Virus record (IMG/VR): IMGVR_UViG_3300023184_000277
Span: 1 to 38,876 of that record
Direction: 5' to 3' (one strand)
DNA from: a virus
DNA length: 38,876 bases
In this document: piece after piece, positions 6,457-38,876 of the stretch
How positions within the stretch are numbered: position 1 is the stretch's first letter
How the letters are laid out: each line of letters starts with the position of its first letter
Notes under the pieces: generated by a model
What the model was told of the DNA's origin: nothing
The model's input: the letters and a program-made list of their open reading frames with translations, nothing else
Database searches by the model: none
Made by a program: the position numbers and the translations under genes

Positions 6457-7043
6457 TGACAAGCAATATTAACCCTAACAACATTGATGGTACTTTTCCC
6501 GTAGCCGGGCAAGATAATGACAGTCAGGGATTTAGAGACAACTTTACCAACATTAAAAATAACTTAACGTATTCACGTGACGAAATCAGTGACTTACAAA
6601 GTAAAGTTTTATTGAAATCAGCGTTAGGGCCGGGGGCCGCGGCTGCTAACAACGACCTTAATAATGCAGTATTATACCGAGCAAAGCTGAAATCACACAG
6701 TGAGATATTTACTGACTTGGGGACTATTAGTTCTACCGCAGCTATTAGTTTTTTAGATGGAAACATACAAAAAATTACCGGCGGAACTATTGCTGATACT
6801 TTGGCAATAGGTTTGCAAGACTTTCCAAATGCAGGAACATATGGTTCACTGAGATTGTGGTTTCACACAACAGTGTCAAACTATAAGCTTCAGCTGCCAA
6901 CTTCAGTTACATTTGGGTTAGGAAATTTAGCCAATTGGACATCAAGTCCCAGTACTATCACTTTTGCTACCCCAACTCATGCTTTATTTGAGTTTATCAC
7001 TGTCGACGGCGGTGTTAATTTCTGGATTATTCGACTAGCATAA
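6456..7043 (+). CDS. Putative tail fibre/baseplate structural protein
   Basis: 195 residues. The N-terminus (NPNNIDGTFPVAGQDNDSQG then FRDNFTNIKNNL) is a variant of the head module seen in the fibres at 749 and 2061. It is followed by a predicted short helix (FTNIKNNLTYSRDEISDLQSK). The C-terminal part is beta-rich and ends FEFITVDGGVNFWIIRLA. It is translationally coupled to the 820-residue protein through TAATG. Likely a baseplate-proximal fibre or short structural subunit. The gene closes the fibre cluster; the next gene has its own sigma70-like promoter. Confidence 0.65.
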   Translation: MTSNINPNNIDGTFPVAGQDNDSQGFRDNFTNIKNNLTYSRDEISDLQSKVLLKSALGPGAAAANNDLNNAVLYRAKLKSHSEIFTDLGTISSTAAISFLDGNIQKITGGTIADTLAIGLQDFPNAGTYGSLRLWFHTTVSNYKLQLPTSVTFGLGNLANWTSSPSTITFATPTHALFEFITVDGGVNFWIIRLA

Positions 7044-7046
7044 CCA

Positions 7047-7075
7047 TTGACTTCTTGTTGGCAATAGTGTATACT
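7047..7075 (+). promoter_or_regulatory. Sigma70-type promoter
   Basis: TTGACT at 7047-7052, a 17-nt spacer and TATACT at 7070-7075. It lies right after the fibre cluster and 20 nt before the ATG at 7096. An imperfect inverted repeat AGTGTATACT (7066-7075) covers the -10 element. Confidence 0.75.
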
Positions 7076-7095
7076 TTGCTAACACAGGAGACAAT

Positions 7096-7251
7096 ATGGA
7101 CTTAAAAGATCTAGACCAGCATACTAAGAATTTATATCGGGTACATGCCTTGCTTGAGTCGGGGCGGATTCTTATGGCTCGAGAACTATTAGAAAAGATA
7201 CTGGGTATCTACGTAGAACCTGCACCCAGTCCCGAACCAGAGGCGGCATAA
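7096..7251 (+). CDS. Small hypothetical protein (51 aa)
   Basis: The gene starts at an ATG preceded by CAGGAGA and a sigma70-like promoter. The 51-residue product begins MDLKDLDQHTKNLYRVHALL, is predicted helical and ends in a Pro/Glu-rich tail (PAPSPEPEAA). There is no signal peptide or transmembrane segment. The stop is 1 nt from the next start. Function unknown. Its place at the head of a replication-related transcript suggests an early or middle phage accessory protein. Confidence 0.65.
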   Translation: MDLKDLDQHTKNLYRVHALLESGRILMARELLEKILGIYVEPAPSPEPEAA

Positions 7252-8386: not shown

Positions 8387-8752
8387 ATGAGTTTAGAACC
8401 AGTCAAGATTAAATCACTAAAGCCATTACATGATCATGTAATGGTCAGTGATATGAATTTCAAAGAACGTTTTACCAGCAGCGGAATTATTATTCCCAGC
8501 GACAACGGAAAAACACAGGGTATTAGACCACGGTGGGCACAGGTATATGCGGTCGGTCCCGAGCAACAAGATGTTAAGGTAGGTGATTGGATTTGTGTGG
8601 CGCACGGCCGTTGGACACGTGGCACCACTGTTGAAGATGACAACGGTGTTCATACTGTGCGCAGGATTGATACCAATGACATCCTGCTGGTCAGTGACGA
8701 GCAGCCAAGTGATGACACCATGAGTGAAGCCATCCACGGTAATCCAGTTTAA
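8387..8752 (+). CDS. GroES-like co-chaperonin (gp31-type role)
   Basis: 121 residues with the GroES beta-barrel signature: IKSLKPLHDHVMV at the start, a mobile-loop region FKERFTSSGIIIP (~24-37) including the GIIIP contact motif for GroEL, then VYAVGPEQQDVKVGDWICV. E. coli GroES is 97 residues; T4 gp31 (111) and this protein are longer. In T4, gp31 replaces GroES so that the host GroEL chamber can fold the large capsid protein gp23. This gene lies directly upstream of the clamp loader gene (16 nt apart). Family membership is clear; a major-capsid client is inference by analogy. Confidence 0.85.
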   Translation: MSLEPVKIKSLKPLHDHVMVSDMNFKERFTSSGIIIPSDNGKTQGIRPRWAQVYAVGPEQQDVKVGDWICVAHGRWTRGTTVEDDNGVHTVRRIDTNDILLVSDEQPSDDTMSEAIHGNPV

Positions 8753-8768
8753 TATCAAGGAGACATTT

Positions 8769-9701
8769 GTGAAAGAGCTTTGGGTAGAAAAGTGGCGGCC
8801 TAGAACCGCCAGTGAATATGTGTTTGCTGATAGTACGCAGAAAGAGTTAGTAGAGTCCTGGATCAAGGACAAATACATTCCGCACATCTTGCTCAGTGGC
8901 AGTCCAGGTACTGGTAAGACTACATTGGCTAAGGTCTTAATCAATGAACTGGATGTTGATGAATACGACATCATGTATGCAAATGGTAGTAAAGAAGCAC
9001 GTAAGATCGAGTGGGTGGACAAGCTGATCAGCTTTTGTCAAACCATGCCATTTGGTGCATTCAAAGTAGTCATGATTGACGAAGCTGACTACATGAACAT
9101 CAATAGTGTACAGCCGGCATTACGTGGGCTCATGGAAGACTACAGCCAAACTGTGCGATTTATCTTGACTTGTAACTATCCCAACAAGATCATGCCAGCG
9201 ATACACAGTCGCTGTGAACAAGGCAGAATCCACATAGATAAGACTGATATTACTGAATTTACTGCCAGAGTTGCTACGGTTTTAGTGGAGGAAGGCATCG
9301 AATTTGATCTGGACACCCTAGACAGCTATGTCAAGGCAACCTATCCTGATTTACGTAGTTGTTTAAATCTATCACAAAAGAAGTCTGTTAGTGGAACTCT
9401 AGCAGTACCCGGGGAGGCAGATGCAGCAGTACGGGATTGGCGATTAGACAGCGTGGGCCTGTTCAAAGCTGGCCGCATCAGGGAAGCTAGACAGTTGATT
9501 TGCAGCCAAGTGGCCACAGAAGACATGGATGGTATGTTTCGTTGGATGTATGACAACTTGAGTATATGGAGTGCAACTCCTGAAGGTCAAGACGAAGCTA
9601 TTTGCGCAATCCGTAAAGGCTATGTCAGTCATGCCAGCTGCGGAGATGCCGAAATCAATGTCAGCGCCACAATCACAGAACTTTGTCAAATAGGAATCTA
9701 A
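8769..9701 (+). CDS. 44: Sliding-clamp loader ATPase subunit (T4 gp44-like)
   Basis: 310 residues from GTG 8769. This start was chosen over the upstream ATG at 8724 because AAGGAGA sits 5 nt before it and the protein then begins at KELWVEKWRP, the usual N-terminus of clamp-loader ATPases. Walker A GSPGTGKT at ~44-51, Walker B IDEAD at ~103-107 and the SRC motif with arginine finger at ~147-149 are intact. T4 gp44 is 319 residues. gp44 forms the ATPase ring with gp62 and loads the gp45 clamp for DNA replication and, in T4, late transcription. No obvious gp62 follows, so it may be elsewhere or highly diverged. Confidence 0.92.
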   Translation: MKELWVEKWRPRTASEYVFADSTQKELVESWIKDKYIPHILLSGSPGTGKTTLAKVLINELDVDEYDIMYANGSKEARKIEWVDKLISFCQTMPFGAFKVVMIDEADYMNINSVQPALRGLMEDYSQTVRFILTCNYPNKIMPAIHSRCEQGRIHIDKTDITEFTARVATVLVEEGIEFDLDTLDSYVKATYPDLRSCLNLSQKKSVSGTLAVPGEADAAVRDWRLDSVGLFKAGRIREARQLICSQVATEDMDGMFRWMYDNLSIWSATPEGQDEAICAIRKGYVSHASCGDAEINVSATITELCQIGI

Positions 9702-15110: not shown

Positions 15111-15385
15111 AATTAATTAAATTACTAGCAATGGTATCTATTTTATTAATTGCAGGGTGTAGTACCACTGTTCCAGTCGCTGCTAGATTTCCGGATGCCC
15201 CTATTCTGCTATTAGAAAAATGCCCTCAGTTAAAAACTATTGAAGGCGAATCGGTGAGTATTATTGATTTTACAAAAACTGTAACATTAAATTATACAAC
15301 ATATTATGAATGTGCTGTAAAAAGCGATGCTTGGATAGAGTGGTATCAAATACAAAAGAAAATATTTGAGGGAATAAATGACTAA
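15107..15385 (+). CDS. Rz1: Rz1-like outer-membrane spanin lipoprotein
   Basis: 92 residues with a type II signal peptide: a basic N-terminus, hydrophobic core LLAMVSILL and lipobox LIAGC with Cys18 as the lipidated residue. The mature protein is ~75 residues with two further Cys and no membrane segment. Typical Rz1 is shorter and Pro-rich; this one is longer and not Pro-rich but its position fits (4-nt overlap with the Rz-like gene). It should span the periplasm with the Rz-like partner during lysis. Overlaps the next fibre gene by 8 nt. Confidence 0.8.
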
Positions 15386-17045
15386 AATTTTATCAGACGA
15401 TGGTAGCACTCCTAAATTACCTAGTAGGACATTAACTGCGGCAATACCAAGATCCCAAGTTGATATAGTAGGGCCCACTGGGCCTAAAGGGGCAACTGGA
15501 CCCACAGGGCCCTCGGGAGTTAAAGGAGCAACTGGGTCCACTGGCCCGACCGGTATTAGGGGCGCCACTGGTAACACTGGTCCTGCAGGACCACAAGGTA
15601 CATCAGGTATCAGAGGATCAACCGGAATTACTGGCCCAACAGGTCCATCTGGACTAAGAGGTGCTACTGGTGTTAAAGGTGACCGTGGAGAGACTGGTGT
15701 AACCGGACCAACCGGTGTAACCGGTGTAACCGGACCAACTGGCCTAGGTACCACTGGACCAACCGGACCAATTGGTGCAACAGGACCTGGTGGTGGACCA
15801 ACTGGCCCAACTGGGGTAGGATACTACGGACTGACTTCTAATACTAATATGGTCATCGAAGGGGGGTTACTTGACGTTGGGGACACGGTTGGGTTTACAA
15901 CAAATCTCATGTCAACAGAAACAGCATTCACAAACGGGCAGCGTATTCGTGCATATGCCGTTTCAAGTACTAATAGCAGCTTTTTAGAAGGAGACATAAC
16001 TTCTTTTACTGGTAATTTATTAAACTTAACCATAACTAATTCTGGCGGCAGCGGATCATACACCATGTGGAATTTTTCCACAGCTGGTATTATGGGAGCA
16101 TCTGGTACTGTTGGACTAACAGGTCCTACTGGCGCAGTTGGTATCACTGGTACAACTGGTGCAACTGGTCCAACTGGTCCAACTGGTGCGTCTGGTATTG
16201 GATACCTTGCGTTAACTGCCAATGTTGCTCGCACCATTGAATTTGGCGCAAATATATCATTCCCAGTTAATAAGACCGCAAATCTAACAGCATTCACAGT
16301 TGGTCAGCGTGTACGTGCAGCAAATATTGCCGCAGATGTTATAAATGCTGTTGAAGGTACTATTACTGCATTCACTGGAAATACCATGTATGTCTTAACA
16401 GATAACATAACCGGTGACGGAATTTACAACGGCTGGGTAATATCTGCGGCGCCCGGCGAAAAAGGATCAAGAGGATCAACCGGTGTAACTGGTCCCACTG
16501 GTCCAACTGGTGCAACTGGGGCATCGGGATCATTTACGTTTGGTAATTTAACTACCAGTATTACAAGTTCTCCAGGAACTACTGTTCGCTTCACCAGCAA
16601 TACTACCGCAAATAGTTCAGGTAATTTACAAATTAATGTACTTAATAACGAAATTAGTTTTGCTCTACCAACCTCAATGAAGTTAATTGAAACCGTTATA
16701 AGCACTGCTAACGTTGTAGCCGGAACTGCCAACGTTGGTAATATTAGTAGTAACATTAGGCCTGATTGGGCCACTGGAAGTATTTTTAATTACACATTAA
16801 AAACCAACGCCAATCTATTTGTACCAAACAATATGCCAATTGGTTCATCAGTAACATTGGTATTCACACAAGATGCTGTGGGCAGCAGGATCATAACGCC
16901 AGTAGGTAATGTTACTACTGGCACTTATTTGTTTGCTGGTAATATTAGAACCTTAAGTACTGCCGCCAACGCAGTTGACATGATGAACGTGGTGCGTACA
17001 AACAGCACTCAGTATTTGGCAGCGGTGTCGCTAGGGTATAAGTAA
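15378..17045 (+). CDS. Collagen-like fibre protein with duplicated globular domain
   Basis: 555 residues. After a 30-residue leader come three collagen blocks (~31-148, ~246-273, ~361-386) alternating with globular domains. Two interposed domains of ~85-100 residues are homologous to each other. One contains [16 protein letters not shown] and [20 protein letters not shown]. The other contains [16 protein letters not shown] and [20 protein letters not shown]. Both carry a TxFTGNxxxL element and end in a Tyr-Trp pattern (SYTMWNFS / IYNGWVIS). The C-terminal ~165 residues form a third beta-rich domain. Probably a second receptor-binding fibre, unrelated at its N-terminus to those at 749/2061. 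Lies inside the lysis cluster. Confidence 0.8.
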
Positions 17046-26312: not shown

Positions 26313-26945
26313 ATGTTTATTGCTGAATTATTTGAAGAAACACAAGAAAAGGCTGATGTCCTGGTAATTTATCCCGGGAGATTTCAGCCTTTTCATAAGG
26401 GGCATTTTGCCGTTTATAACCGGTTAGTTAAACTCTACGGTCGCGACAGTGTGTTTATTGCCACCAGCAACAAGGTAGAACCTCCCCGTAGTCCATTTAA
26501 TTTCAGTGATAAAGCACAGTTCATGGCCCTGACTGGGGTACACCTAGACCGAGTAATTGAAAGCAGCCAACCTTACCGTGCTATAGAAATAGTCGGACGG
26601 TATGATCCTGCACGTACACAGTTGATTTTTGCAGTCAGCGAAAAAGACATGGCCGAAGATCCTAGATTTTCCAGCTGGGTTAAGAAGGACGGAACTCCTG
26701 CTTACTTCCAACCCATGCCGCATGACAACGGCCCAATGACTACACTGGATCATCACGCCTACATACTCACAGTACCTACAGTAGAGTTTAAGGTATTAGG
26801 TGAGCCTATGCAAAGTGCTACACAGATACGTGCTCGGTTTGCGGCCAGCGACGAAAACACACAAAAACGCATTGTGCAGGACCTATTTGGCGGTTATAAT
26901 GACGCCGTGATGGCCATTATGCAGCACAAACTAGCAGGTGTATAA
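26313..26945 (+). CDS. NMN-adenylyltransferase-like enzyme with capsid-targeting-like N-terminus
   Basis: 210 residues. GRFQPFHKGH at ~22-31 is the (H/T)xGH nucleotidyltransferase signature in the form typical of NadM-type NMN adenylyltransferases. SATQIRARF at ~168-176 matches their second motif (S-x-T-x-x-R). Such enzymes make NAD from NMN and ATP; related cytidylyltransferases cannot be ruled out. The first 12 residues (MFIAELFEETQE) precede the catalytic fold. They match the pattern of the neighbouring putative head-cargo proteins, with an L-F-E cleavage candidate, and resemble my recollection of the T4 Alt start. This suggests the enzyme is packaged and injected. Late-type box upstream. 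Confidence 0.8.
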   Translation: MFIAELFEETQEKADVLVIYPGRFQPFHKGHFAVYNRLVKLYGRDSVFIATSNKVEPPRSPFNFSDKAQFMALTGVHLDRVIESSQPYRAIEIVGRYDPARTQLIFAVSEKDMAEDPRFSSWVKKDGTPAYFQPMPHDNGPMTTLDHHAYILTVPTVEFKVLGEPMQSATQIRARFAASDENTQKRIVQDLFGGYNDAVMAIMQHKLAGV

Positions 26946-26967: not shown

Positions 26968-27357
26968 ATGAAAAAATCCGACTTCGTTAAAGAAAATATC
27001 GTGTTGCGAGCCGATACCATGCAAAGAGATCATGAAGTGCAGATGGCACGTGAAGAGTGCTATCACATTGCCAGTAATGCAATTGAGCTGCATAAACTGT
27101 TAAAAACTGTTAGCGAGTCACATGGCCTAGATGGTTGGGTATCTGAGAAAATCAGTCTAGCTAACGACTATGTTAACACCGTTAAAGAATACTTAGAATA
27201 CGAATTGCGTACCGGAAGCCCAAGTAGTATTGCCACCCTAGGCGAAGATGGCGGCATGGGCGCGGTATCGGCTGGTGCTACCACTGCCAGCAGCATAGCA
27301 GCAGCACCTCCCCGTAGCCTATTCCCTAAAAAAATGATTAAAAGGAAAATGAAATGA
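26968..27357 (+). CDS. Putative head protein, cargo-type N-terminus (129 aa)
   Basis: 129 residues. MKKSDFVKEN fits the shared M-x3-[DE]-hh-x-E start (V-K-E site at 7-9). A helical core follows (ADTMQRDHEVQMAREECYHI; IELHKLLKTVSESHGLDGWV; DYVNTVKEYLEYEL), then an Ala/Ser-rich linker and a basic tail ending KKMIKRKMK. I associate the core with a small conserved protein of T4-like aquatic phages but know no function; a prohead core or internal head protein fits its helical, basic-tailed build. Overlaps the next gene by ATGA. Confidence 0.65.
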   Translation: MKKSDFVKENIVLRADTMQRDHEVQMAREECYHIASNAIELHKLLKTVSESHGLDGWVSEKISLANDYVNTVKEYLEYELRTGSPSSIATLGEDGGMGAVSAGATTASSIAAAPPRSLFPKKMIKRKMK

Positions 27358-29543
27358 GTAACAATAGCGACATGATTAAAATGCTGCGACTGGTAGAAGG
27401 TCAGCAGTTTGCAGGCTTACCGGAGCAGAAGCCTGGTGACCAAGTGCGTGGTACCGAGCGAGCCAAAAAGAAAGGCGATCAACATCCATTTCATAATCGC
27501 TTAGTTGGCGAAGAAATCAGCTTGGAAGATAAACTGTCCAAGAAGTACCAGGACATGAAAGACCTGCATGGCAAGGACAAAGATGTGGCGGAAGAAGGTT
27601 CAGAAAACAAATATTCTAACCTATCTAACCGCGGAGTAAATCGCGGAATAAATCGTGCCGCTGATGATTTTGACAGATTTATGGACCTTGACCAAGCAGA
27701 ATCACCACATTATAAAACACAACATCAACAAGATACAAAGCAAAGACTAAAAACAAAACCCATGGCAGGACCTAAGGGTCAATTGCCAGAAGCCGCTGGT
27801 CCTGTTGATTATGAAAAAGTGCTAGAGGCTATTGCTGCATTGTATGGTGATGACATGTGGGACAACGATGCCATGGGAGACCTGGCACAAGATCTTGAAC
27901 AAGCTGGACCAACTGATCGAGAATTAGATTTTATTATTGCCAAAGGCAAGTTACCGACACGTTTAAAGAATATTAGATTCACCAACTCAGACGATGTTCA
28001 ATTTGGCCATCTAGACGAAAAAAGTGGCACACACGCCAAACCCAACTTGCCCGAGGGTGTCGCAGAATCAATGTCCATGGCGGATGCCGTAAAATTGTTG
28101 CGTCAGTATGGTGCAGGTCATTTCAAAACAGGCAGCGAAACTTTGCAGTTTTACAAAAACGGTCGACCTTTCAGTCTTGACTTAATCTGGAACGATGATA
28201 CGACTCGTAGTGTGAGTTTAAGTCAGTTAAACTCAGTCACCCGGGGATTAAAGGGCCAAGGTATAGCAGAAGGCCGTAATGAAATAGCCACAGGAACGCC
28301 CGATGCTATTAAAGCAAAAATTGCAGAGCTAGGTCTAGGACCATATAGACGAGAAAGTACCGGTTCAGGAGGCGAGGCAATATTTGTTTTTAATAAGAAT
28401 CCAGATTATTACATATATCAAGGCCAAGACGGTGCCTGGGTATTAGTCCAGACCAACGCAGAATCAGACCAGCAAGGTGTGGCGGAAGGCAATTTCAAAC
28501 AAACACCTGGACAACGACAATATCGTGCCATGCACTCACAATTACAATCATTGGCCAATTCTGGACAAATCAACACCCCTGATGGTAAACAAAAAGCAGA
28601 AAAAACGATTGACACTATTCAACAATTAGTTGATACAGACCCATCGTGCGCTGGTAGCACGGTGCCCTCTAAGAAGATATGGTTGTCAGAGCAAAGTATA
28701 GCGGAAGGCAATATGCCACAGTCAGTTATCAAAAGCAAACAAAAGTATGCTGACATGACTGACCAAGAGTTCTATGCTGCACACAAGAATAAATCTGCGG
28801 AAGAATTACAAGCCATGGCATGGCGTCATGGTTACGGTCGAGGCAGCAACCACTATGTGGCCAAGCACAAAAAAGGTTCAACAGTGACCGAAGGCCAAGA
28901 AGAAATCGAATACATCTGTTCGGGTTGCAGCGGATCGGGTGAAGGCCCACACGAAGGCACTACCTGCAGAACCTGCCATGGCAGTGGAGTAGAAATGGGT
29001 TATGCAGATGAGCCAGAACACGAGCATGATCAAGAAGAATTGGATGAAGACCAACACGGAAGCCCCATGGAGCGGCCTATGCTGAATAGGATCATGATGC
29101 GTCATATGGATCTAATAGAAAAATACGGGATTGACCGTGTGCTAGATGCAGTACGCGAGGTTGCAGACGGCATACATATTGGTCCAGATGATGAAATCGG
29201 TACCAGTGATGTCAGTGCCGCAATGGTCAATGTCATGAATCAACTCAAATCATCAGACCATGCCGTTGACGAAGATATACCGGCCGGGGATATTAATGCC
29301 AGCGGATCAGCATCAACTTCTAGTGGTCCAGCGCCAGCAGTATCAGCTGGCGGTACTGCTCCGACTACACCAAGCAGCACTGCGCCAGCCCCGGCAGCAA
29401 CTACTGCGCCAGCACCAGCTGGATCCACTGCACCAGGGCAGCAACAGCCAATGACGCCCGAAGAACAAGCAGCATTAGATAAAATTAAATCCAACGCTGG
29501 ACTAAAAGCCCAGTACGATAGATTAATACAACAAGCACACTAA
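27354..29543 (+). CDS. Putative head-cargo polyprotein with VAEG joints and a DnaJ-type zinc module
   Basis: 729 residues. Hydrophobic-x-Glu joints recur: LVEG (~13-16), LPEAAG, GVAES (Glu238), GIAEG (Glu306), GVAEG (Glu378), SIAEG (Glu451) and TVTEG. They separate unlike modules of ~65-100 residues. Joints are followed by G, S or A, as at T4 prohead-protease sites. One module after TVTEG holds CSGCSGSG and CRTCHGSG (Cys522, 525, 538, 541), half of a DnaJ-type zinc finger, followed by an acidic stretch. The C-terminus is Ala/Pro/Thr-rich then helical (EEQAALDKIKSNAGLKAQYD). Best read as a structural precursor cut into modules; not proven. Individual modules are unrecognised. Confidence 0.65.
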   Translation: MSNNSDMIKMLRLVEGQQFAGLPEQKPGDQVRGTERAKKKGDQHPFHNRLVGEEISLEDKLSKKYQDMKDLHGKDKDVAEEGSENKYSNLSNRGVNRGINRAADDFDRFMDLDQAESPHYKTQHQQDTKQRLKTKPMAGPKGQLPEAAGPVDYEKVLEAIAALYGDDMWDNDAMGDLAQDLEQAGPTDRELDFIIAKGKLPTRLKNIRFTNSDDVQFGHLDEKSGTHAKPNLPEGVAESMSMADAVKLLRQYGAGHFKTGSETLQFYKNGRPFSLDLIWNDDTTRSVSLSQLNSVTRGLKGQGIAEGRNEIATGTPDAIKAKIAELGLGPYRRESTGSGGEAIFVFNKNPDYYIYQGQDGAWVLVQTNAESDQQGVAEGNFKQTPGQRQYRAMHSQLQSLANSGQINTPDGKQKAEKTIDTIQQLVDTDPSCAGSTVPSKKIWLSEQSIAEGNMPQSVIKSKQKYADMTDQEFYAAHKNKSAEELQAMAWRHGYGRGSNHYVAKHKKGSTVTEGQEEIEYICSGCSGSGEGPHEGTTCRTCHGSGVEMGYADEPEHEHDQEELDEDQHGSPMERPMLNRIMMRHMDLIEKYGIDRVLDAVREVADGIHIGPDDEIGTSDVSAAMVNVMNQLKSSDHAVDEDIPAGDINASGSASTSSGPAPAVSAGGTAPTTPSSTAPAPAATTAPAPAGSTAPGQQQPMTPEEQAALDKIKSNAGLKAQYDRLIQQAH

Positions 29544-31284
29544 AAGGTACACGATGCGTTTATTTGATGTTTTTTCTTACAACGATGGCCAATTGGTAAC
29601 TGAATCTCTAAATGTGCAGCAGTTGGCCGCCATTAGCGACGAAGCACTAGATAATAAGTACCATTATGGTCGTAGTACACCCGGTAACACATTTGGATGG
29701 CAAGCTAATTTAGCCAGCGCCGCCTATGCTAAACAAGCAATTGAATCTGGTTTTACTAAGATTGATCAAATAAGTGATGCTGTTCATAAAGGTTGGTGGT
29801 CAGTGGCACAAAAATTTGTAGACGATCCTGATCAATTTAGTGATACCGAGACGTTACGTGCAAAGGGAAAGTTTGATAAAAAAATGGCTGATAGAATAGC
29901 ACAAATGGTGCCATTTAATCAATTAACAAAAGACCAACAAGACATAGACCGCGAAGTAGCAGAAGCGTTATTGCAGGCTATTACTGGTGGCAGCGAGCAA
30001 GGTGTAGCAGAAGGCATATTAGGTTCAGATCCAAATCGTGGACAGAAAGTTCCTGGCTGGGCTAAAGGAGGTGTCATAGGAAAGATAGGTCGCAAGTTAG
30101 ATCCAGCATGGAGTGATATCCAAATGACTGTTCCTCAGCACCTACTATCCAAGCAATCCAGTGTACCTGCTACAAACTCACCGGCAACTAAAGACATGCC
30201 CAAAGTTAAAGCTACATCAATTATTCCTACTAGAGCAATTCCACAAAGGGCAGGAAACAACTCATCACACCCGGTGACGAAGAATGTTGTAAAAACAATA
30301 GCAGATAAGTCAGGTGTGGCGGAGGGTTCAGACCGGGTTGATTCACTTGTGACCGACGCATTACGAGTAATGAAGGGTCCAGAAATAAGTGATGCTGTAC
30401 TAGCATTAAAGAGAGTATTGGGCGATAGAGCATATAATGAGCGCCGCGGCTTTTACAGTTTCTATGTTGACCAAATACATAGAAATTGGCAACTTCCTAT
30501 GAACGGTCAGCAAGGCATGGCGGAAGGCACCGGACAAGTTGAAGCATATGGTTATAGATATAATAATCGTGATCAACGTGTGGTGTGGCGTAAAAATTTC
30601 CCAAGTAGTGAGGCTGCTTATGCATGGGCAGATAAAAATAATGCTACAGTAATAGGTGTCCGGGCTGCTGAAAAAGCAGTAGACGAAGCGTTTAGATTAG
30701 GCAATAAACGACTGGGCAATAGGCGCGATAGATTTAAAAGCATACATAAGCCAAGTCTAGTAGAAACAGAACCAACACATCGTATTGGTGTTACTGTAAC
30801 TGACCCTAATCATCCCATGGTGAGCAAACGTGGCGAAACTGTACAGAAGAGTATACGTGTAACACATGCAGACCGTGATGCAGCAATCAATCGTGCTATT
30901 GCTCACTATCGCCGCAAAGGTTACAAGGTACATGATCATCACTACATGGGTACTGTAGAGCCGGGTGTGGCGGAAGGCTCGTTAAACGAATTTTCTCAGG
31001 GATCGGGTGGCGGCGAATCAGGACGCTGGTACACAGACGATGAAATGACTGACATTGTAGGTGATGGATGGTGGCAAGACATGGACGTCAGCGGTGCAAA
31101 CATTGGCGTAATTGATAGTGAAGTGCCAAAAGAATACATGATCCAACAAGCACAGGCTTGGTTAGATGATCAAGGTTATAGTGTTCAAGTACTGAATTGT
31201 CGAGTAAATGATGATGACATGGAATGGTATATCGAAGGCAGTTTCCAAAATTCCAGCTTTGCTAAAAAAGGTGTGGCGGAAGCC
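28056..31284 (+). repeat. Dispersed GGTGTGGCGGAAGGC-type joint repeats
   Basis: Near-identical 15-mers encode GVAEG at 28476, 30964 and again at 38596 (perfect). Variants begin at 28056, 28260, 28695, 30001, 30313, 30514 and 31270. All are in the same codon phase. Six or more share the core TGGCGG, including GCG for Ala, so similarity extends to synonymous positions, beyond what protein selection requires. Confidence 0.8.
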
Positions 31285-31812
31285 AAAACCAGTGCAGCAG
31301 TTAGGTTGGGTCGCGCAATTGATCGTACACAAGGCAAGACAGCAGCCAGCCAAGCACGGTCTGTTATCCCATCAAGTATTCCTAAAAAAGAAGAGCCCAA
31401 GCGGGATGAAAAGAAAGTCGACGAAGGCATACAAGCTGGTGATGGATTTATTATCGAGTGCGGCGACATTGCTATTGAAACCGTAGTGCTGGGCAACTAC
31501 CACGATGGTATCTTGATTGAGTTTGATCACACTGCCACATTCATGTTGATTGATCATGGCATTGTACTAACCGAAGCTGAGTATCATGGACGCACAGTGC
31601 CCCTGGGCAAGCGCATGGCCGGTGATGTCAAGAAAAGCAAAGTCTACGTTAAAAAGCCCAACGGCAATGTAGTCAAGGTCAACTTTGGCGACAAAAACAT
31701 GACCATCAAGAAGCACTTGCCCAAGCACAGAAAGAGCTATAGAGCCAGACACCACTGTGAGAACCCGGGACCCAAGTGGAAAGCCAACTATTGGAGTTGC
31801 CGTGCTTGGTAA
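29554..31812 (+). CDS. Putative head-cargo polyprotein with C-terminal conserved phage domain
   Basis: 752 residues. The N-terminus (MRLFDVF...LVTES) matches the cargo-type start. GVAEG-type joints place Glu at 153, 257, 324 (GMAEG), 474 and 576 (GVAEA), plus VDEA (~369) and VDEG (~627). Modules between them differ, for example SDRVDSLVTDALRVMKGPEI and ESGRWYTDDEMTDIVGDGWW. The last ~115 residues (RMAGDVKKSKVYVKKPNGNV; KVNFGDKNMTIKKHLPKHRK; SYRARHHCENPGPKWKANYW) are a domain I recognise from many T4-like aquatic phage virion proteins of unknown role; Cys/His conservation there hints at metal binding. Eight possible cuts would give about nine pieces. Not proven. Confidence 0.65.
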   Translation: MRLFDVFSYNDGQLVTESLNVQQLAAISDEALDNKYHYGRSTPGNTFGWQANLASAAYAKQAIESGFTKIDQISDAVHKGWWSVAQKFVDDPDQFSDTETLRAKGKFDKKMADRIAQMVPFNQLTKDQQDIDREVAEALLQAITGGSEQGVAEGILGSDPNRGQKVPGWAKGGVIGKIGRKLDPAWSDIQMTVPQHLLSKQSSVPATNSPATKDMPKVKATSIIPTRAIPQRAGNNSSHPVTKNVVKTIADKSGVAEGSDRVDSLVTDALRVMKGPEISDAVLALKRVLGDRAYNERRGFYSFYVDQIHRNWQLPMNGQQGMAEGTGQVEAYGYRYNNRDQRVVWRKNFPSSEAAYAWADKNNATVIGVRAAEKAVDEAFRLGNKRLGNRRDRFKSIHKPSLVETEPTHRIGVTVTDPNHPMVSKRGETVQKSIRVTHADRDAAINRAIAHYRRKGYKVHDHHYMGTVEPGVAEGSLNEFSQGSGGGESGRWYTDDEMTDIVGDGWWQDMDVSGANIGVIDSEVPKEYMIQQAQAWLDDQGYSVQVLNCRVNDDDMEWYIEGSFQNSSFAKKGVAEAKTSAAVRLGRAIDRTQGKTAASQARSVIPSSIPKKEEPKRDEKKVDEGIQAGDGFIIECGDIAIETVVLGNYHDGILIEFDHTATFMLIDHGIVLTEAEYHGRTVPLGKRMAGDVKKSKVYVKKPNGNVVKVNFGDKNMTIKKHLPKHRKSYRARHHCENPGPKWKANYWSCRAW

Positions 31813-31817
31813 GCTGG

Positions 31818-31825
31818 AATAAATA
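31818..31825 (+). promoter_or_regulatory. Late-promoter-like box AATAAATA
   Basis: One mismatch from TATAAATA, ending 6 nt before the ATG of the Dps-like gene; no ribosome site lies between them apart from a GGA before the box. Confidence 0.35.
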
Positions 31826-31830
31826 ACAGT

Positions 31831-32298
31831 ATGGAAGAACTACAAAAAGCCGCTAAGATTGGATTCGCCAGTGAATTCAGTTTCTATTTAAAAGCACACA
31901 ATTTTCACTGGAACGTTGAAGGCATCCACTTCCAAGAATTACATTCACTGTTTGAAACTATCTACTTAGAAGTTTACGGCAGCATAGACCCTTTCGCAGA
32001 AAACATACGCAAGCTCAATGCCTATACACCAGCCAGTCTGGAACGTTTTAGTATGTTAAGTACTATTGACGATGAAAACGAAATGTTAGGCCCAACAGAA
32101 ATGTTGCAGGAATTGCTCGTCGATTCCGATAAGATGGTGCGTGTACTTAAGATGATTTACGACATCGCTGAACGTGAAGGCGAACATGGTTTCAGCAACT
32201 TCCTAGCTGAGCGCATGGATGCACACCGTAAACACAGCTGGCAACTGCGAGCCAGTTTAAAAACTCGTGATCATGAGCCTCCTGCTGTGGAGGCGTAA
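31831..32298 (+). CDS. dps: Dps-like ferritin
   Basis: 155 residues. KAHNFHWNVEGIHFQELHSL and IDPFAENIR match the Dps family. The intersubunit ferroxidase ligands are conserved in spacing: His26, His38, Glu42 (Asp in E. coli Dps), Asp53 and Glu57. Dps dodecamers bind DNA and oxidise Fe(II) with hydrogen peroxide, protecting DNA. The Lys-rich N-terminal tail of E. coli Dps is absent, so DNA binding is uncertain. No cargo-type N-terminus, unlike its neighbours. The stop overlaps the next start by one base (TAATG). It may protect packaged or replicating phage DNA from oxidative damage. Confidence 0.9.
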   Translation: MEELQKAAKIGFASEFSFYLKAHNFHWNVEGIHFQELHSLFETIYLEVYGSIDPFAENIRKLNAYTPASLERFSMLSTIDDENEMLGPTEMLQELLVDSDKMVRVLKMIYDIAEREGEHGFSNFLAERMDAHRKHSWQLRASLKTRDHEPPAVEA

Positions 32299-33986
32299 TG
32301 AGACTACACGACTTTCTCAATTTATCCGAAAACATGGACCACAGCCAGGATGGCCGGGCTGTGCCTGAGCTCAAGGCCGCGCTAACCTCACACAGCAAAG
32401 AAATACAATCGGCCACAGACGATCAAGTCTATGACATAATCGATCGCATGATGACTCGCATTGCCAAGAGTCATGGCATCAGCGGACAAAAACTACACGA
32501 CATGTGGGTTGACAAGTACGGACAGATACCTGATACTTGGATAATGAAAATCAAAGAAGAACGACAACGTCTTGACCCACATTGCTGGAAAAACAAAAAA
32601 ATTGGCAATCCCAATACAAAGGTCAAAGGTGGCGTCAGAGTCAACAACTGTGTACCCAAAGAAGGCCTAGTGGCGGGCCTGGTCAGTACCCTACTGGTAG
32701 AATACGATCGCAGCAAAACAGCAGCCAACTTTGGTGAGAAAATACTAGCAATAGCGGCCAAAGACAAATGGTTAGTAAACGAACTAATGGCACGTATGCG
32801 CTTTCTCGTTGGCAGCGACCAGCTTGCTCTAAAGTTTGCTGAGTTGGTTAAAACCGACCCGCAAGAAACCATAACAAAAATACTAGAGTATCTAGAACGT
32901 GGCGATCCTACGCCACACAAAGAATACACTCCTGCTATCGCTAAAATGTATGCCAATGGACAGAGCAAAATGGAAGACATTGTTAGTACATTAGCTGACT
33001 ACTTGACTAAGTTTGATAGACTTAAACGTAAGAAAAAGATACAGCCGCCGCGCAACGACTTTAATCGTTATCGCAACCTTGAAGACTTTTATGACGTGGT
33101 GGACGAGTATCCCGATGAAGAAGAAGTCAAGCCAGAAACCAAACAAAACGCACAAGAACTGTATCGTGACAGCCGGTTGATTGTTACTGTTCCCCGAGAC
33201 GTAGCTGCTGCTTGCTACTACGGGCAAGGCACACGCTGGTGTACAGCAGGCAAGAACAACAACATGTATGACTACTATACTAAAGGCGATCGCCCACTGT
33301 ATGTTATTATTCCACGCCAGCCTGCACATCCTGGCGAAAAGTATCAGTTTCACTTTGAAACCAAACAGTTCATGAACGAACAAGACCGCCAGATTGGTAT
33401 GGATGGTATTGCCCAGCTGGTACAAAGATTTCCTGAACTGACCAAGATCCTACAAGCGCCTGCAGAGAAGTATTCCATCATGCCACTAATTGGTCCCGAG
33501 TACAAGAACATTGTTAAAGAATTTACTCCAGTGGCAATCGAACAAACTGCGCAGTTGGTAAACCAATACGCCGATCGCATCATTGGATTTGGCTTCAAGA
33601 GCATCAAAGACTATGGCATAGTTTTAAATCCCCAGAGCGAGCAGGCCATCGAAGGCAACATGCGCGACTATCTGGCACAGTGTTTAAAGGCCATGACCGC
33701 GCACACCGGCATTTGGAACCAAATCATGCAACAGTCGGGCACAGAACGCAACGAAGATAAAATTGAAAGCATGCTCAGCAGCGACGAATTATTGAAGAAG
33801 GTGTCAGAGACCAGCCAGGCGGGTCAACTGTTACATAAAGAATTACAAAATCAAAAGATTAATAATATGGCCGTTCCGCATGTAGTTGACCTTGTGATGA
33901 GAGATCCACTGTTTAGATTCCTCATGCGCCAAATACCCAAAATGTACACTGCCAAGCTACAGGAGAATGGCCATGCGCTGGCGTGA
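32298..33986 (+). CDS. Putative head-cargo protein with WCTAG domain
   Basis: 562 residues. Start MRLHDFLNLSEN fits the cargo pattern with an L-S-E site at 9-11. Residues ~60-120 are helical with HCWKNKKIGNPNTKVKGGVR and a conserved-looking basic patch. The middle (LSPxxx-like LYRDSRLIVTVPRDVAAACY, then GTRWCTAGKNNNMYDYYTKG and EKYQFHFETKQFMNEQDRQI, ~292-372) is a compact domain I have seen in unrelated phage proteins; Trp314-Cys315-Thr316-Ala317 is its hallmark. No function is known to me. Possibly an injected enzyme. The C-terminus is helical and overlaps the next gene. Confidence 0.7.
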   Translation: MRLHDFLNLSENMDHSQDGRAVPELKAALTSHSKEIQSATDDQVYDIIDRMMTRIAKSHGISGQKLHDMWVDKYGQIPDTWIMKIKEERQRLDPHCWKNKKIGNPNTKVKGGVRVNNCVPKEGLVAGLVSTLLVEYDRSKTAANFGEKILAIAAKDKWLVNELMARMRFLVGSDQLALKFAELVKTDPQETITKILEYLERGDPTPHKEYTPAIAKMYANGQSKMEDIVSTLADYLTKFDRLKRKKKIQPPRNDFNRYRNLEDFYDVVDEYPDEEEVKPETKQNAQELYRDSRLIVTVPRDVAAACYYGQGTRWCTAGKNNNMYDYYTKGDRPLYVIIPRQPAHPGEKYQFHFETKQFMNEQDRQIGMDGIAQLVQRFPELTKILQAPAEKYSIMPLIGPEYKNIVKEFTPVAIEQTAQLVNQYADRIIGFGFKSIKDYGIVLNPQSEQAIEGNMRDYLAQCLKAMTAHTGIWNQIMQQSGTERNEDKIESMLSSDELLKKVSETSQAGQLLHKELQNQKINNMAVPHVVDLVMRDPLFRFLMRQIPKMYTAKLQENGHALA

Positions 33987-34563
33987 AATACTAGAATCAG
34001 TTGACACCAGTGATGACGACCTGTTTGGTGAGCATGTGGGCATTGAAAAGGCCTGGCGTAGTGTAGCCAAGTACATGAGTTGGTTTCCCAAGGTGTATAC
34101 AGTGCTGAGACAGTCTGGAAAAATATACGGCGAACTCAAACACAGGACTGGCACTAGCGACCCCGAATTTAGTGAGATAGTGGCGGTTGCTACACCGCTG
34201 GAACTACTGGAACTGTCAGCTGAACTAAAAAAGATTGCCAATATCACAGAATGGGAATATCAAAGGCAGCGTAGGGTGAACGAAAATAAAGATGACGATA
34301 TTGACGATGACGATATGTTTGCGCATCGCGATCCACGTGCTGTGAGAGTCGGCAATCGGGCTGTTGACATGGGGTCTATAGAACTTGGCGGTGTTGATAG
34401 TAGAGACTACCCAGACTTCACTGATGCATATGTACAAGCAGCAGACTATAGAAATGGTACTCCACTAAGTGATGACGAGTTAAATGAATTAACTGACACG
34501 TTGTCTAACAGCGGGCAGCTACATGCCATGATCTGGGATACGTTGAACGAAGGTAACAGATAA
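33973..34563 (+). CDS. Putative head-cargo protein with two DDD-[LM]-F tags
   Basis: 196 residues from ATG 33973, preferred to ATG 33967 because AGGAGA (33961-33966) is 6 nt away and the protein then starts MRWREILES like its neighbours. I-L-E is the cleavage candidate, followed by VDTSDDDLFGEH. A second VNENKDDDIDDDDMFAHRD occurs at ~101-119, so it would give two modules: a helical one (KAWRSVAKYMSWFPKVYTVL) and an acidic one (DYPDFTDAYVQAADYRNGTP). It looks like a short version of the 34563 protein. TAATG coupling to that gene. Confidence 0.65.
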   Translation: MRWREILESVDTSDDDLFGEHVGIEKAWRSVAKYMSWFPKVYTVLRQSGKIYGELKHRTGTSDPEFSEIVAVATPLELLELSAELKKIANITEWEYQRQRRVNENKDDDIDDDDMFAHRDPRAVRVGNRAVDMGSIELGGVDSRDYPDFTDAYVQAADYRNGTPLSDDELNELTDTLSNSGQLHAMIWDTLNEGNR

Positions 34564-36833
34564 TGAATATTAAAGACGTAATTAAAGAAAACATTGAATC
34601 TGACAGTGACCTGTTTGGTTCAGCCAGCGTACGAGACAAATTGCATAAACAAATAAATAGCCTTTATGATAAGATAGGTAAAGAATATGATGATCTCGGA
34701 TTTGAGGCACTGATGAGTACCAAGGTCTATAGTAAACTATTTGATAAATGGGACGATGGTGAGCACGACCCCAACGAAGTCATGGCCTATAAAGAACCCG
34801 TAAATCTGCTGGTGCAAGCAGTGGCCGAAATGGAAGACGTTTCTCAGAATGCATATGACTATCTAGAACTAGAAGAAAACAAGGAATCCGACAGTGATCT
34901 GTTTGGCGGTGGTGCTGCTAGACCTCTCCTGCTATCAAAATATTTTGAATTCCCTGAGGGTGGCAATCTTGGATACACCGAAGGCGGCGGCGGCATTGGC
35001 TATGGTGGACAGCGTACAAATGGACTAGTTATTGTTAACCGAGCCAGCAATCAGATTGCCTTTGTTCCAGACTTTACATATTTTGACGAAGAGCCCACGC
35101 AGGAAACACTGGAAGAATGGTGGTACGAACATGACGCAGAGTATGCACTGGATAAACTGCCACTTACTTTACAGAATGTAGAAAAGTTTTTAGAGCTTAA
35201 CGAATCAGAATCTGACAGTGACCTGTTTGGCGATCCCGGTGCAGTGTCAATCAACGCGGTGAGAGCATTACGCAATCAAAATAAAACCAATAAGGATCCG
35301 TTCAACAACACTAGACAGTACGGGGATCACCGAATAAAAAGCAACGGCAAAATATACCGACAGGATCAAGAAGCACGACGCCATCGTGTCGGGGCACGAC
35401 TTGGCAGACACGCAAATCCTGTACTGCCCGAGAGTGAGTCGGATGACGACTTGTTTGGTCATGACATGATGCTAGACAAAATTCATGATGCATATGCACG
35501 AATTTATAATTACGATAACAACGGTCTTGAGATGTTGGATGCCTTGGCAGGGACATATAATGAATTAAGTGAGAAGTACAATAGTGCCAATATAGATTCA
35601 ATAATTGCTCAGGCTGATGCAATTGAACGCAAACAATTGTTACTTGATTTAGAATATGTCGCTGATGCATGCGATGAACAATATGGGCATATGGGCATAT
35701 ACGAAGCCGAAGACGATGACTTGTTTAGTACTGCTCGACGTGCGCCACCTAAAGATTTAAACTTGTTGTTGGGCTGGGCCGGCAACGATCCCGAAAAAGA
35801 AGACTTTGCGTATGTGGCCAAATTTGGCATCAAACACAACATGAATCTTAAACAGACTTTTGAAGTGCTACAGCACTTTGATGACGTACCTGGTAACTCA
35901 AGACTAGAAAAAAAGTGGGGAGTCAGTGAAGCCATGGCCATGCGATTGTTCATTGCATATGAGTACACCTATGATGCATGGGAGCCTGCCGGTAACAACG
36001 GCGAGCAGGCAGCACACGACTTCTGGGAGGCAGCAGATGCTGAACTGGCAGAGCCACCAGAGCCACCACGCCGGGCTGCTGCACCAACAAAAGACAAGCC
36101 CAAACTGGATCCCAACATGTTTGCTCCTCAAATGGATCAGCCCTTGGCTAAAACAGATCCTCTTGACGATCTTAAAAAGAATGCCGGCATCGGTGGTGAT
36201 CGACCCACAGTAGACCTACGCAAGTCTAGTCAAGCCAACACATTAAATAAAACAGCCGGCCTTGGATCAGCTGACATGAGCAACATGCTGGGTCGCATGC
36301 GCAATATCGAAATTGACAAGGACCTAGACGCATATCCAGATCAAGACTCAGAGACTGTGCCTAGCGTAGAAGTCAACACGGCCAACTTGCCAGCAGTAGC
36401 AGGGCAAGCACTACGGGCGGCGGGTGTAGAAAACCCCGAGTTCCACCAAGTGGCAAACTTGCCCGGCAACATGGCGGATCAAATCCGCCAGCTGGGCAAG
36501 AGCCTGTTTGGCAGCATGACCATGACTCCCACCAAGCGCATACATGTCATTGCCAACTTGGGCGGCAAAGGCCCTAACAGCACACAAGAAGTCAATGCTG
36601 TGGCCGGTTTCTTAAAACAACATGGCAGCGATCGTGGTCCCGGTGATGTAGATTTTGATGCAGTCATGCCTGGCTATAAAGCACAAACACACATGTACAC
36701 CGCAGCAGGTATCCGTTGGATGCTGGTAAAAGACTTTGCTGGACAATACATCTACTGCTGGCCCGAAGAAGACAGCCATGATGCTGCACCTGCGCTAGGC
36801 AACGACTCACCAGAGGCACCAAGACTGCGATGA
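34563..36833 (+). CDS. Five-tag polyprotein with repeated E-S-D-S-D-L-F-G joints
   Basis: 756 residues. Start MNIKDVIKEN with an I-K-E site. The tag E-S-D-[SD]-D-L-F-G recurs with Glu at 12, 108, 216 and 292, and a degenerate EAEDDDLF at ~381. Each tag follows a [LI]-x-E site within ten residues: IKE, LEE, LNE, LPE, IYE. Modules 1 and 4 are similar helical bundles (KLHKQINSLYDKI / KIHDAYARIYNYD, each ending before the next site). Module 2 is Gly/aromatic, module 3 basic and short. The last, longest part has a DPNMFAP echo and a folded C-terminal domain (GSMTMTPTKRIHVIANLGGK; AGIRWMLVKDFAGQYIYCWP). Likely a cut precursor. Confidence 0.7.
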   Translation: MNIKDVIKENIESDSDLFGSASVRDKLHKQINSLYDKIGKEYDDLGFEALMSTKVYSKLFDKWDDGEHDPNEVMAYKEPVNLLVQAVAEMEDVSQNAYDYLELEENKESDSDLFGGGAARPLLLSKYFEFPEGGNLGYTEGGGGIGYGGQRTNGLVIVNRASNQIAFVPDFTYFDEEPTQETLEEWWYEHDAEYALDKLPLTLQNVEKFLELNESESDSDLFGDPGAVSINAVRALRNQNKTNKDPFNNTRQYGDHRIKSNGKIYRQDQEARRHRVGARLGRHANPVLPESESDDDLFGHDMMLDKIHDAYARIYNYDNNGLEMLDALAGTYNELSEKYNSANIDSIIAQADAIERKQLLLDLEYVADACDEQYGHMGIYEAEDDDLFSTARRAPPKDLNLLLGWAGNDPEKEDFAYVAKFGIKHNMNLKQTFEVLQHFDDVPGNSRLEKKWGVSEAMAMRLFIAYEYTYDAWEPAGNNGEQAAHDFWEAADAELAEPPEPPRRAAAPTKDKPKLDPNMFAPQMDQPLAKTDPLDDLKKNAGIGGDRPTVDLRKSSQANTLNKTAGLGSADMSNMLGRMRNIEIDKDLDAYPDQDSETVPSVEVNTANLPAVAGQALRAAGVENPEFHQVANLPGNMADQIRQLGKSLFGSMTMTPTKRIHVIANLGGKGPNSTQEVNAVAGFLKQHGSDRGPGDVDFDAVMPGYKAQTHMYTAAGIRWMLVKDFAGQYIYCWPEEDSHDAAPALGNDSPEAPRLR
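34596..35726 (+). repeat. Dispersed in-frame repeat coding for ESDSDLFG
   Basis: Copies at 34596-34618, 34884-34906, 35208-35230, 35436-35458 and a weaker one at 35703-35726. The first and third are identical over 23 nt; the second differs by two synonymous changes. Spacings are 288, 324, 228 and 267 nt, all multiples of three. Related tags occur at ~34011, ~34291 and ~36862 in adjacent genes. Confidence 0.85.
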
Positions 36834-38068
36834 ACATCAAAGACATAATTTTTGAAAACGACGATGCAGATGATATGTTTGCCCCCAGCGAACGATCACT
36901 GCGGTCACTGAATCAAGCCACTTTTCAACAGCGCATACCCGCCATGATTAGATCAGCGTATGCTGCACTGGATGCCCAGACTGGCTGGTTTCCAATACAC
37001 CTGGCCAGGGATATAGGTCAATGTGCGTCCGAGCTCTATAAAGATACAGAAGTATACACACTGGCAGATCAAATGATTAGACAAGATATCATGCCCGTGA
37101 TTGGAAATATTGTGCATCTGCTGGATGCTGAAGCCATGCAACACCAAGACAATTTAGGCGACGCGCTCGCGGATAGTGTTGAAAGCATACAGAGCAACAG
37201 CGAACTTGGGGCGCATATTGGAGCCTTACATGAACAAGAGTACATAAGCCCTGACGAATACTATGAGTGCTACCATGTCATAGAAGGACACATAGCCGAT
37301 TTGTTGATTCGGGTAATATACAATGCGTATGTATCAACAAAAATAACAGATGTGGCAGAAAACAATCATTGGCATGCGGCCGGTGTAGCAGATGCCCGTC
37401 GTGATGTCAAACGCGATCCCAACAGAAAAGTTAAAACACTCAACCCACGCACACAGTTGAAAACCATGCAAGACAAGCAAGCACGACACCCAGATGAAGT
37501 AGAACAATACTCACTGGGTTACAGAAGCATCAATCCTGCATTAAATGAAGATGCTGTAATGGGCAAGATTGAACAGAGTGGACAGATTGTTCGCATACTC
37601 AAGAAACAACACACAGTACCTTTCAGCAGCGACAAGGACTGGTTACTGATAGACACAGATCCTGCCAAGGGCAATAAAGGCTTGGGCATTAAATGGGTTC
37701 CCGCAACTACCCGATTTGAGTGGGTGAGATCTTATAAGGATACTCTCAACCAAGAAGTAGAGGAATCTAATGTGTTTACTGATGCTAGAATGAATGCTAT
37801 CAAAGCAGACAAAGATGCATTTGTAGTTCATGGAAAAAAATATCAAGTAACTGGTGATACTACCGACGAGCTTGAAGCAGGCATAACAGAAAACTTCATC
37901 GACGGTCGACATCCTGAAGACAAAGGTGATGCCAAGCGACACGGTATCAATACCAAAGCATCAGTAAGTAGTCTACGCAAAACTGCCAAGTCAGGTGGCC
38001 GCAAAGGACAACTGGCACACTGGTTGGCCAACATGAAAGCAGGACGAGCAAAGGCTAACAAAAAATGA
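36830..38068 (+). CDS. Putative head-cargo protein (412 aa)
   Basis: 412 residues. MNIKDIIFENDDADDMFAPS has the cargo start, an I-F-E site and a D-D-M-F tag. A helical bundle follows (PAMIRSAYAALDAQTGWFPI; QDIMPVIGNIVHLLDAEAMQ; ECYHVIEGHIADLLIRVIYN). Then a basic linker and a beta-rich part (QSGQIVRILKKQHTVPFSSD; KGLGIKWVPATTRFEWV). The C-terminal 45 residues are Lys/Arg/Gly-rich (SSLRKTAKSGGRKGQLAHWL ... MKAGRAKANKK), which would fit DNA contact within the head. The start overlaps the previous stop by ATGA. Family unknown. Confidence 0.65.
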   Translation: MNIKDIIFENDDADDMFAPSERSLRSLNQATFQQRIPAMIRSAYAALDAQTGWFPIHLARDIGQCASELYKDTEVYTLADQMIRQDIMPVIGNIVHLLDAEAMQHQDNLGDALADSVESIQSNSELGAHIGALHEQEYISPDEYYECYHVIEGHIADLLIRVIYNAYVSTKITDVAENNHWHAAGVADARRDVKRDPNRKVKTLNPRTQLKTMQDKQARHPDEVEQYSLGYRSINPALNEDAVMGKIEQSGQIVRILKKQHTVPFSSDKDWLLIDTDPAKGNKGLGIKWVPATTRFEWVRSYKDTLNQEVEESNVFTDARMNAIKADKDAFVVHGKKYQVTGDTTDELEAGITENFIDGRHPEDKGDAKRHGINTKASVSSLRKTAKSGGRKGQLAHWLANMKAGRAKANKK

Positions 38069-38876
38069 GATCCAGTGAGTTTATTGTTGAACGGCGCGAT
38101 GCAATGTTTCGAGATAAAATTACAGAAGCATTTGACTATCCCTATAAACTTAAATGGGAAAAGAGTAGCTACGGTGATATCGATGCATCCGCTACATTAG
38201 ATGATGGTAATTATCTAAATATATCCTTCAATCAGGAAGAGAATCAAGACGGTAAATTAGTATGGAATGTTGAGTTTGATAGAAACTACAGCCAAGCAGT
38301 AACGGGCGAAGGCGATGCACAACGAGTATTTGCTACTGTTCTATCTGCTATACAAATATTCATTAAAAAGTACAAACCATTGAAATTGGCCTTTGGCGCT
38401 AGTAAAGAAGTTGATCAAGGACAAAACTCTCAAAGCAGAGCCAGACTCTACGATAGTTTAGTTCAACGATATGCTAGAGCTTGGGGTTACAGGGTTTTCC
38501 GTGCAGACACTGGTAATTTAGTTATATATGAATTTTCAAGAATACAAAAGCCTAAGGCTGTAGGTGAAGATTACAATAATCGATTTGCCAAAGAAGGTGT
38601 GGCGGAAGGCTTGGAACAAACTCCTGATCAGGTTCGTCAAACTCTTAATGCTTGGATGAATAAGGATCAACAATTCAAAAATCCAACAGAGCGAGCAGGA
38701 TTCCAAGCACAAGTTTGGCCTTACATTCAGCAGAACATAAAAACTATATTTGCAGACAAAGGTGAGGACGGTAAAGGTAGTTATCCTGCGTCTCCTTTTG
38801 CGGCTTGGTTGTTGGTACAACACATGGATGCTTATCCACAAAATCAAGGAGAATTCTTACAACAACTGGCTCAATC
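38065..38876 (+). CDS. Putative head-cargo protein with GVAEG joint (3' partial)
   Basis: At least 270 residues, open to the window end. Start MRSSEFIVERRDAMFRDKIT, with I-T-E/A at ~20-22 as cleavage candidate. The domain after it (EAFDYPYKLKWEKSSYGDID; RVFATVLSAIQIFIKKYKPL; LVQRYARAWGYRVF) resembles a module I recall from many aquatic phages, usually after an ITEA site. A GVAEG joint with Glu181 follows, identical in DNA to those at 28476 and 30964, then a new helical module (EQTPDQVRQTLNAWMNKDQQ). Overlaps the previous stop by ATGA. Polyprotein like 27354 and 29554. Confidence 0.7.
   Translation, partial: MRSSEFIVERRDAMFRDKITEAFDYPYKLKWEKSSYGDIDASATLDDGNYLNISFNQEENQDGKLVWNVEFDRNYSQAVTGEGDAQRVFATVLSAIQIFIKKYKPLKLAFGASKEVDQGQNSQSRARLYDSLVQRYARAWGYRVFRADTGNLVIYEFSRIQKPKAVGEDYNNRFAKEGVAEGLEQTPDQVRQTLNAWMNKDQQFKNPTERAGFQAQVWPYIQQNIKTIFADKGEDGKGSYPASPFAAWLLVQHMDAYPQNQGEFLQQLAQ

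Follow-up and report, generated by a model that had tools for sequence, protein, structure and literature searches.

Repeated joints in two adjacent proteins

Two adjacent genes in a 38.9-kb virus record, a genome fragment referred to here in full as the window, raise the question of why one short motif recurs along two large proteins. ORF1 (27354–29543, plus strand) encodes a putative polyprotein of 729 amino acids and ORF2 (29554–31812, plus strand) one of 752 amino acids, a layout that matches the description in an earlier note on this DNA. The earlier note had counted at least 14 copies of a set of named joint types; many copies are present, but their number is 11. With a slash marking the predicted cut, ORF1 has GVAE/S at residue 235 (28056–28070), GIAE/G at 303 (28260–28274), GVAE/G at 375 (28476–28490), SIAE/G at 448 (28695–28709) and TVTE/G at 510 (28881–28895). 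ORF2 has GVAE/G at residues 150 (30001–30015), 254 (30313–30327) and 471 (30964–30978), GMAE/G at 321 (30514–30528), GVAE/A at 573 (31270–31284) and KVDE/G at 621 (31414–31428). All lie on the plus strand; those at 28476, 28881 and 30514 are assigned by the motif and that at 31270 by the motif and DNA homology.

The broader consensus [LIVM]xE[GSAN] is found 9 times in ORF1 and 10 times in ORF2, for 19 sites. The core motif [GS][VIM]AE[GSA] occurs 4 times in ORF1 and 5 times in ORF2, compared with 0.024 and 0.023 expected from shuffled sequences; none of 5000 shuffles reached the observed count, and the motif is absent from the 7430 residues of the window's upstream proteins. An additional GVAE/G joint is located at 38596–38610 (plus strand) within an ORF at 38065–38874, past the coordinates of the earlier note. 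At least one match to the motif is probably no joint: EVAEA at ORF2 residues 134–138 (29953–29967) lies within a confidently modeled helix of module A.

The joint is conserved as DNA

At the DNA level the joint is a recurring 18-base repeat, CAAGGTGTGGCGGAAGGC, that uses rare codons and is conserved at synonymous positions. Among 40 G[VIM]AEG joints from loci chosen independently of the joint, 24 are exactly GGTGTGGCGGAAGGC. The Ala codon is GCG in 85% of joints compared with 10% in the same proteins, and the Val codon is GTG in 91% compared with 23%. In a set that includes loci chosen by pattern, four-fold degenerate sites are about 80% identical in the joints, including joints whose surrounding modules show 34–46% identity at such sites. 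The natural 18-mer is present in at least 120 stretches of the viral collection and its reversed control in 7, and a synonym of the 18-mer written in common codons is present 27 times, never in a multi-joint gene. Records of relatives hold 0 to 5 exact copies of the 15-mer each, mainly on a single strand per record. A search of bacterial and archaeal genomes totaling 257 Gb returned 26 scattered single matches to the exact 18-mer, near the chance expectation, one of them in an ORF with two joint-like motifs. Conservation of the joint at the DNA level is established. The initial reading of the joint as a protein motif was incomplete, as it is also conserved as DNA and is the site of module recombination.

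The likelihood that the joints arose by chance, composition or chimeric metagenome assembly is negligible. They are known from metagenomic contigs only, which would fit an assembly artifact, but these modules and joints recur in many independent contigs. Chance and composition were rejected since shuffles and reversed-pattern controls fall far short of the observed numbers. An 18-bp repeat is also shorter than the usual assembly words, which counts against chimeric assembly.

Homology stops at the joints

Searches of viral contigs with ORF1 and ORF2 return matches that are single stretches delimited by joints. The proposal that the sites fall between distinct segments is borne out by homology breakpoints, beyond composition alone. 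Across 153 joint-bearing proteins there are 476 breakpoints that are each backed by at least two alignments, and 47% of these are within 6 residues of [LIVM]xE[GSAN] compared with 12% at random. Control patterns that replace the P1 Glu by Asp or Lys score below random, and Gln gives 7.6% compared with 4.5%. The median segment bounded by joints is 91 amino acids long, and 22 of the 29 module families with at least two members have different neighbors on both sides. Collinear proteins compared directly for the presence or absence of segments yielded few clear cases, in which 9 of 18 insertion ends fell at sites.

The breakpoints can be followed along the two proteins. ORF1 residues 229–307 are matched in loci L088, L106 and L014, with homology beginning at residues 229–234 beside the first joint and stopping at residues 306–307 beside the second, and DNA homology to L134 begins at 28701 within the SIAE/G joint. 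In ORF2, module A (29605–30000, residues 18–149) is a helical domain that is weakly RyR-like and occurs in other contexts in L135, L136 and L141, with residues 14–146 matched in L136. DNA homology begins at 29999 at the joint that follows. Module B (30013–30324) is bounded downstream by the joint at 30313–30327, where DNA homology reaches its limits at 30325 and 30314. Module C (30325–30525) is in a different gene in L134 and also occurs in L136, L004 and L009, and residues 252–326 are matched in several loci. Modules D and E (30526–30975), the latter a predicted β-β-α-β unit, are defined by homology and the model. Module F (30976–31281) is the most widely shuffled by homology; residues 468–578 give 85–91% matches in L134 and L137–L140 with different neighbors. 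DNA homology breaks again at 31423–31426 in the KVDE/G joint, and the C-terminal domain (31429–31809) has a relative that is a stand-alone gene in Pelagibacter phage HTVC008M and phage C48C1. All of these modules are on the plus strand.

The comparison with L134, which is the same contig as L125, resolves the exchange at the nucleotide level. The two DNAs are collinear and 91.6% identical at window positions 31423–32558. Module B (29999–30325) corresponds to L134 positions 8925–9245 and module F (30958–31285) to 8618–8942, so module B comes after module F in L134 and before it in the window, and the two L134 matches overlap exactly in the joint. Module C (30314–30476) corresponds to L134 positions 6977–7139. 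For the joint-bearing genes of all loci, 21.6% of DNA-homology ends are no more than 15 nt away from a joint 18-mer compared with 4.8% at random. Modular shuffling at the joints is established in both protein and DNA.

Drifting joints retain a hydrophobic P3 residue and a P1 Glu

Copies of the repeat that have drifted in sequence show that the joint is a protein element as well. With up to 5 mismatches allowed, 532 of 564 copies are on the coding strand in the GVAEG phase of the longest frame. The P1 Glu is kept in 351 of 378 drifted in-phase copies and Val, Met, Leu or Ile is kept at P3 in 368, while drift occurs at P1′ (Gly in 222), P2 (Ala in 287), P4 (Gly in 291) and P5 (Gln in 212). In the 274 copies with at most 4 mismatches, the Val codon differs at its second base in 2, and the Glu codon at its first two bases in 5. 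Processing of the T4 IPIII targeting sequence needs residues 8 and 10, and Asp at residue 10 blocks it (PMC9026906); Glu is the residue after which the proteases of T4 and giant phages cut (PMC5694885). The fixed hydrophobic P3 and P1 Glu support the gp21-type specificity that had been proposed for the joints. Cleavage by the prohead protease is predicted as the best reading of this constraint and of the genomic context, and the P3/Glu constraint could in principle serve some other interaction.

The reading phase bears on whether the repeat is a mobile or site-specific element, such as a recombinase or homing-nuclease target, that is tolerated in frame and encodes a peptide without a role. This explanation accommodates an 18-mer that has rare codons and is near-identical between contigs, and the scarcity of the common-codon synonym and its absence from multi-joint genes. 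It is highly improbable, as nearly all copies share one phase on the coding strand, drifted copies show strong amino acid constraint, and no dedicated recombinase was identified.

The constraint also bears on whether the joints are recombination-compatible linkers only, in an intact multidomain chain of the polyvalent type that is never cut. The joint DNA is conserved beyond any protein need, modules shuffle at the joints, and Iyer et al. (PMC5512222) describe polyvalent proteins, among them the N4 virion RNA polymerase, that are packaged without cleavage. A pure linker does not need the hydrophobic P3 and P1 Glu that are kept after DNA identity is lost, Asp-for-Glu sites are not used as boundaries, and some joints come directly after a short N-terminal peptide, with no domain there to connect. 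Uncut linkers are an unlikely explanation, and cleavage at the joints is the preferred reading.

Module content and predicted structure

Among the Pfam matches in 65 joint proteins are GNAT, dCMP deaminase, Pol-beta nucleotidyltransferase, NT5C, ParB, SutA-RBD and GP88 domains but no peptidase family, and one joint protein weakly matches a polyvalent-protein kinase. Chains of disparate domains are a property of the joint-protein family as a whole; the modules of the two window proteins are mostly without a known family. The modules are mostly 50–150 amino acids long, several contain recognizable enzyme domains, and a good fold is predicted for at least one; for these reasons the term "small cargo peptides" used for them earlier was an understatement.

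For module A (ORF2 residues 17–146), most of the prediction has pLDDT above 84, and the domain stops just short of the joint at 150; residues 1–16 and 147 onward have low confidence. In the model of modules E and F, the joint at ORF2 residues 471–475 is in a low-confidence linker (model residues 104–124) between two α/β units and the joint at 573–577 is in the low-confidence C-terminal end; the overall confidence is modest. Modules B, C, E and F and all joints are in low-confidence regions with shallow alignments. The per-segment structure check proposed earlier found no joint buried in a continuous domain, but it is a weak test except for module A. A Foldseek search with structure model 1 found no significant fold. 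Full-length multiple alignments of fragment homologs (A1–A5 and A7) misplaced modules and were left out of folding.

Other features were observed in the window. ORF1 residues ~511–565 (28884–29048) contain a zinc-finger-like CxxCxGxG motif with a weak match to the DnaJ central domain. A Dps/ferritin-like gene (31831–32298) immediately follows the joint proteins and precedes further cargo-like genes. A second repeated motif that resembles a junction, E..(D/S)D(S/D)DLFG, occurs five times in a 756-residue protein (34563–36833) and at the start of its neighbors (33967–34563 and 36830–38068), and is essentially confined to the window among the fetched loci. Long collagen-like GPTG/GATG repeats at 1–1822 and 15378–17045 belong to probable tail or surface proteins.

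Prohead protease, major head protein and N-terminal peptides

The prohead protease expected from the initial proposal was located in relatives: a gp21-type protease (PF03420) is present in 10 of 24 and gp23 (PF07068) in 12, and in the two that have gp23 but no protease match, gp23 is at the contig end. Neither gene was detected in the window contig, where head genes are absent. In the relatives, a gp22-like gene with dense sites lies between the protease and gp23 genes and adjacent to both, and the gp23 propeptides begin with repeated sites of the LLE/G, LLE/G, ILE/N, and LAE/N or LAE/S types.

The gp22-like gene bears on whether the joint proteins are a dispensable core or scaffold of the prohead, comparable to T4 gp22, gp67 and gp68, that is cut and mostly expelled and delivers no cargo. 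The gp21 protease degrades these three T4 proteins to small peptides (PMC9958956), and the relatives' gp22-like gene is rich in sites. A scaffold role is improbable nonetheless, since that position is already filled by a separate gene, and joint-protein modules include recognizable enzymes, vary freely in content and have joints between rather than through them.

A cargo role is consistent with the amino termini. ORF1 begins with MSNNSDMIKMLRLVE/G (27354–27398, plus strand), a candidate capsid-targeting sequence (CTS) with a gp21-like site at its end, LVE/G (Glu15). ORF2 begins with MRLFDVFSYNDGQLVTE/S (29554–29604, plus strand), a second candidate CTS that is low-confidence in the model at residues 1–16 and ends in VTE/S (Glu17). 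Both sites are assigned by pattern only. Joint proteins in relatives have T4-CTS-like amino termini such as MRFSEIISEA and MRATEFIIEGVAEG. A regular expression for such termini is matched by 14–20% of joint proteins, by 4.9% of the remaining genes of these loci and by 0.7% of shuffled N-termini, and most joint proteins do not match it. The first joint is within 30 residues of the start in 7 of 68 proteins, and 1 of 207 inter-joint gaps is that short, which makes linkers alone a hard explanation.

A cytidylyltransferase-like protein upstream of ORF1 (26313–26945) has the amino terminus MFIAELFEET, which resembles a capsid-targeting peptide. HNH-endonuclease-like ORFs were seen by eye beside the protease/gp23 cluster in L237 and L240 and near a joint gene in L138, and are possible drivers of exchange.

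Discussion

The joint proteins are probably head-packaged modular cargo polyproteins that are cut into domains by the prohead protease and built by recombination at a joint that is also the cleavage site. The proposal that they are virion polyproteins processed by the prohead protease is upheld by joints that bound modules, by gp21-like drift and by the protease in relatives. In this model, the N-terminal targeting peptide would bring the polyprotein into the prohead core, a gp21-type protease would cut after Glu in [V/I/M/L]-x-E-[G/A/S] joints, and the freed single domains would be retained in the head and delivered along with the DNA. Packaging and delivery of the modules are proposed by analogy. 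We infer that the genes grow and change via recombination between copies of the 18-bp in-frame joint. The joint would act as recombination homology and cleavage site at once, so an exchanged module would enter in frame with its own cut site.

A broader reading is possible but tentative: the joint may define a cassette system in a wide range of T4-like environmental phages, including jumbo phages, by which virion cargo domains are assembled, swapped and released, and its DNA sequence may be upheld by selection or by an active recombination process, perhaps one driven by an enzyme. The data suggest that viruses with joints build multi-part protein payloads, swap the parts and cut them inside the particle. 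If this is true, tailed phages carry and rapidly re-tool a multi-part payload, and the polyprotein logic known from eukaryotic RNA viruses is operated by a head-maturation protease. The joint sequence can serve to find many effector-like domains of unknown kind in uncultivated phages, and what cargo accompanies the DNA of T4-like and giant phages into the host becomes a question testable module by module. Annotated phage records and isolated relatives found by homology contain single modules only and no joints, and limited literature searches returned no description of this joint or of virion polyproteins of this kind. For phages with joints, neither a cleavage product nor a virion proteome turned up.

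The closest known systems each share part of this arrangement. The T4 internal head proteins IPI, IPII, IPIII and Alt have a capsid-targeting sequence and are processed by gp21. The joint proteins resemble them in the candidate N-terminal targeting peptide of a minority of chains, the predicted Glu-specific site with a constrained P3, the gp21- and gp23-type genes in relatives and the cargo-like enzymes. The T4 internal proteins shed only a short N-terminal peptide, whereas the joint proteins have multiple predicted cuts between shuffled domains at a DNA-conserved joint. Multiple prohead-protease cuts per chain, predicted here, also occur in the T4 core proteins gp22, gp67 and gp68 and in the SPN3US and phiKZ head propeptides; those are scaffold or propeptide fragments, whereas the pieces here are shuffled enzyme modules, and the gp22-type position between the protease and gp23 is occupied by a separate gene in relatives. 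Polyvalent proteins are described by Iyer et al. (2017, PMC5512222) as chains of 2–15 disparate effector domains with extensive mosaicism and presumed injection. The joint proteins are likewise multidomain mosaic chains with GNAT and nucleotide-active domains and a weak kinase match. The sections of that paper considered here ascribe processing to embedded peptidases, as a common but not universal theme, and report no shared joint sequence, whereas a shared joint is present here and cutting is predicted to be done in trans by the prohead protease. The arrangement combines two known ideas, the targeting and processing of T4 internal proteins and the domain mosaicism of polyvalent proteins.
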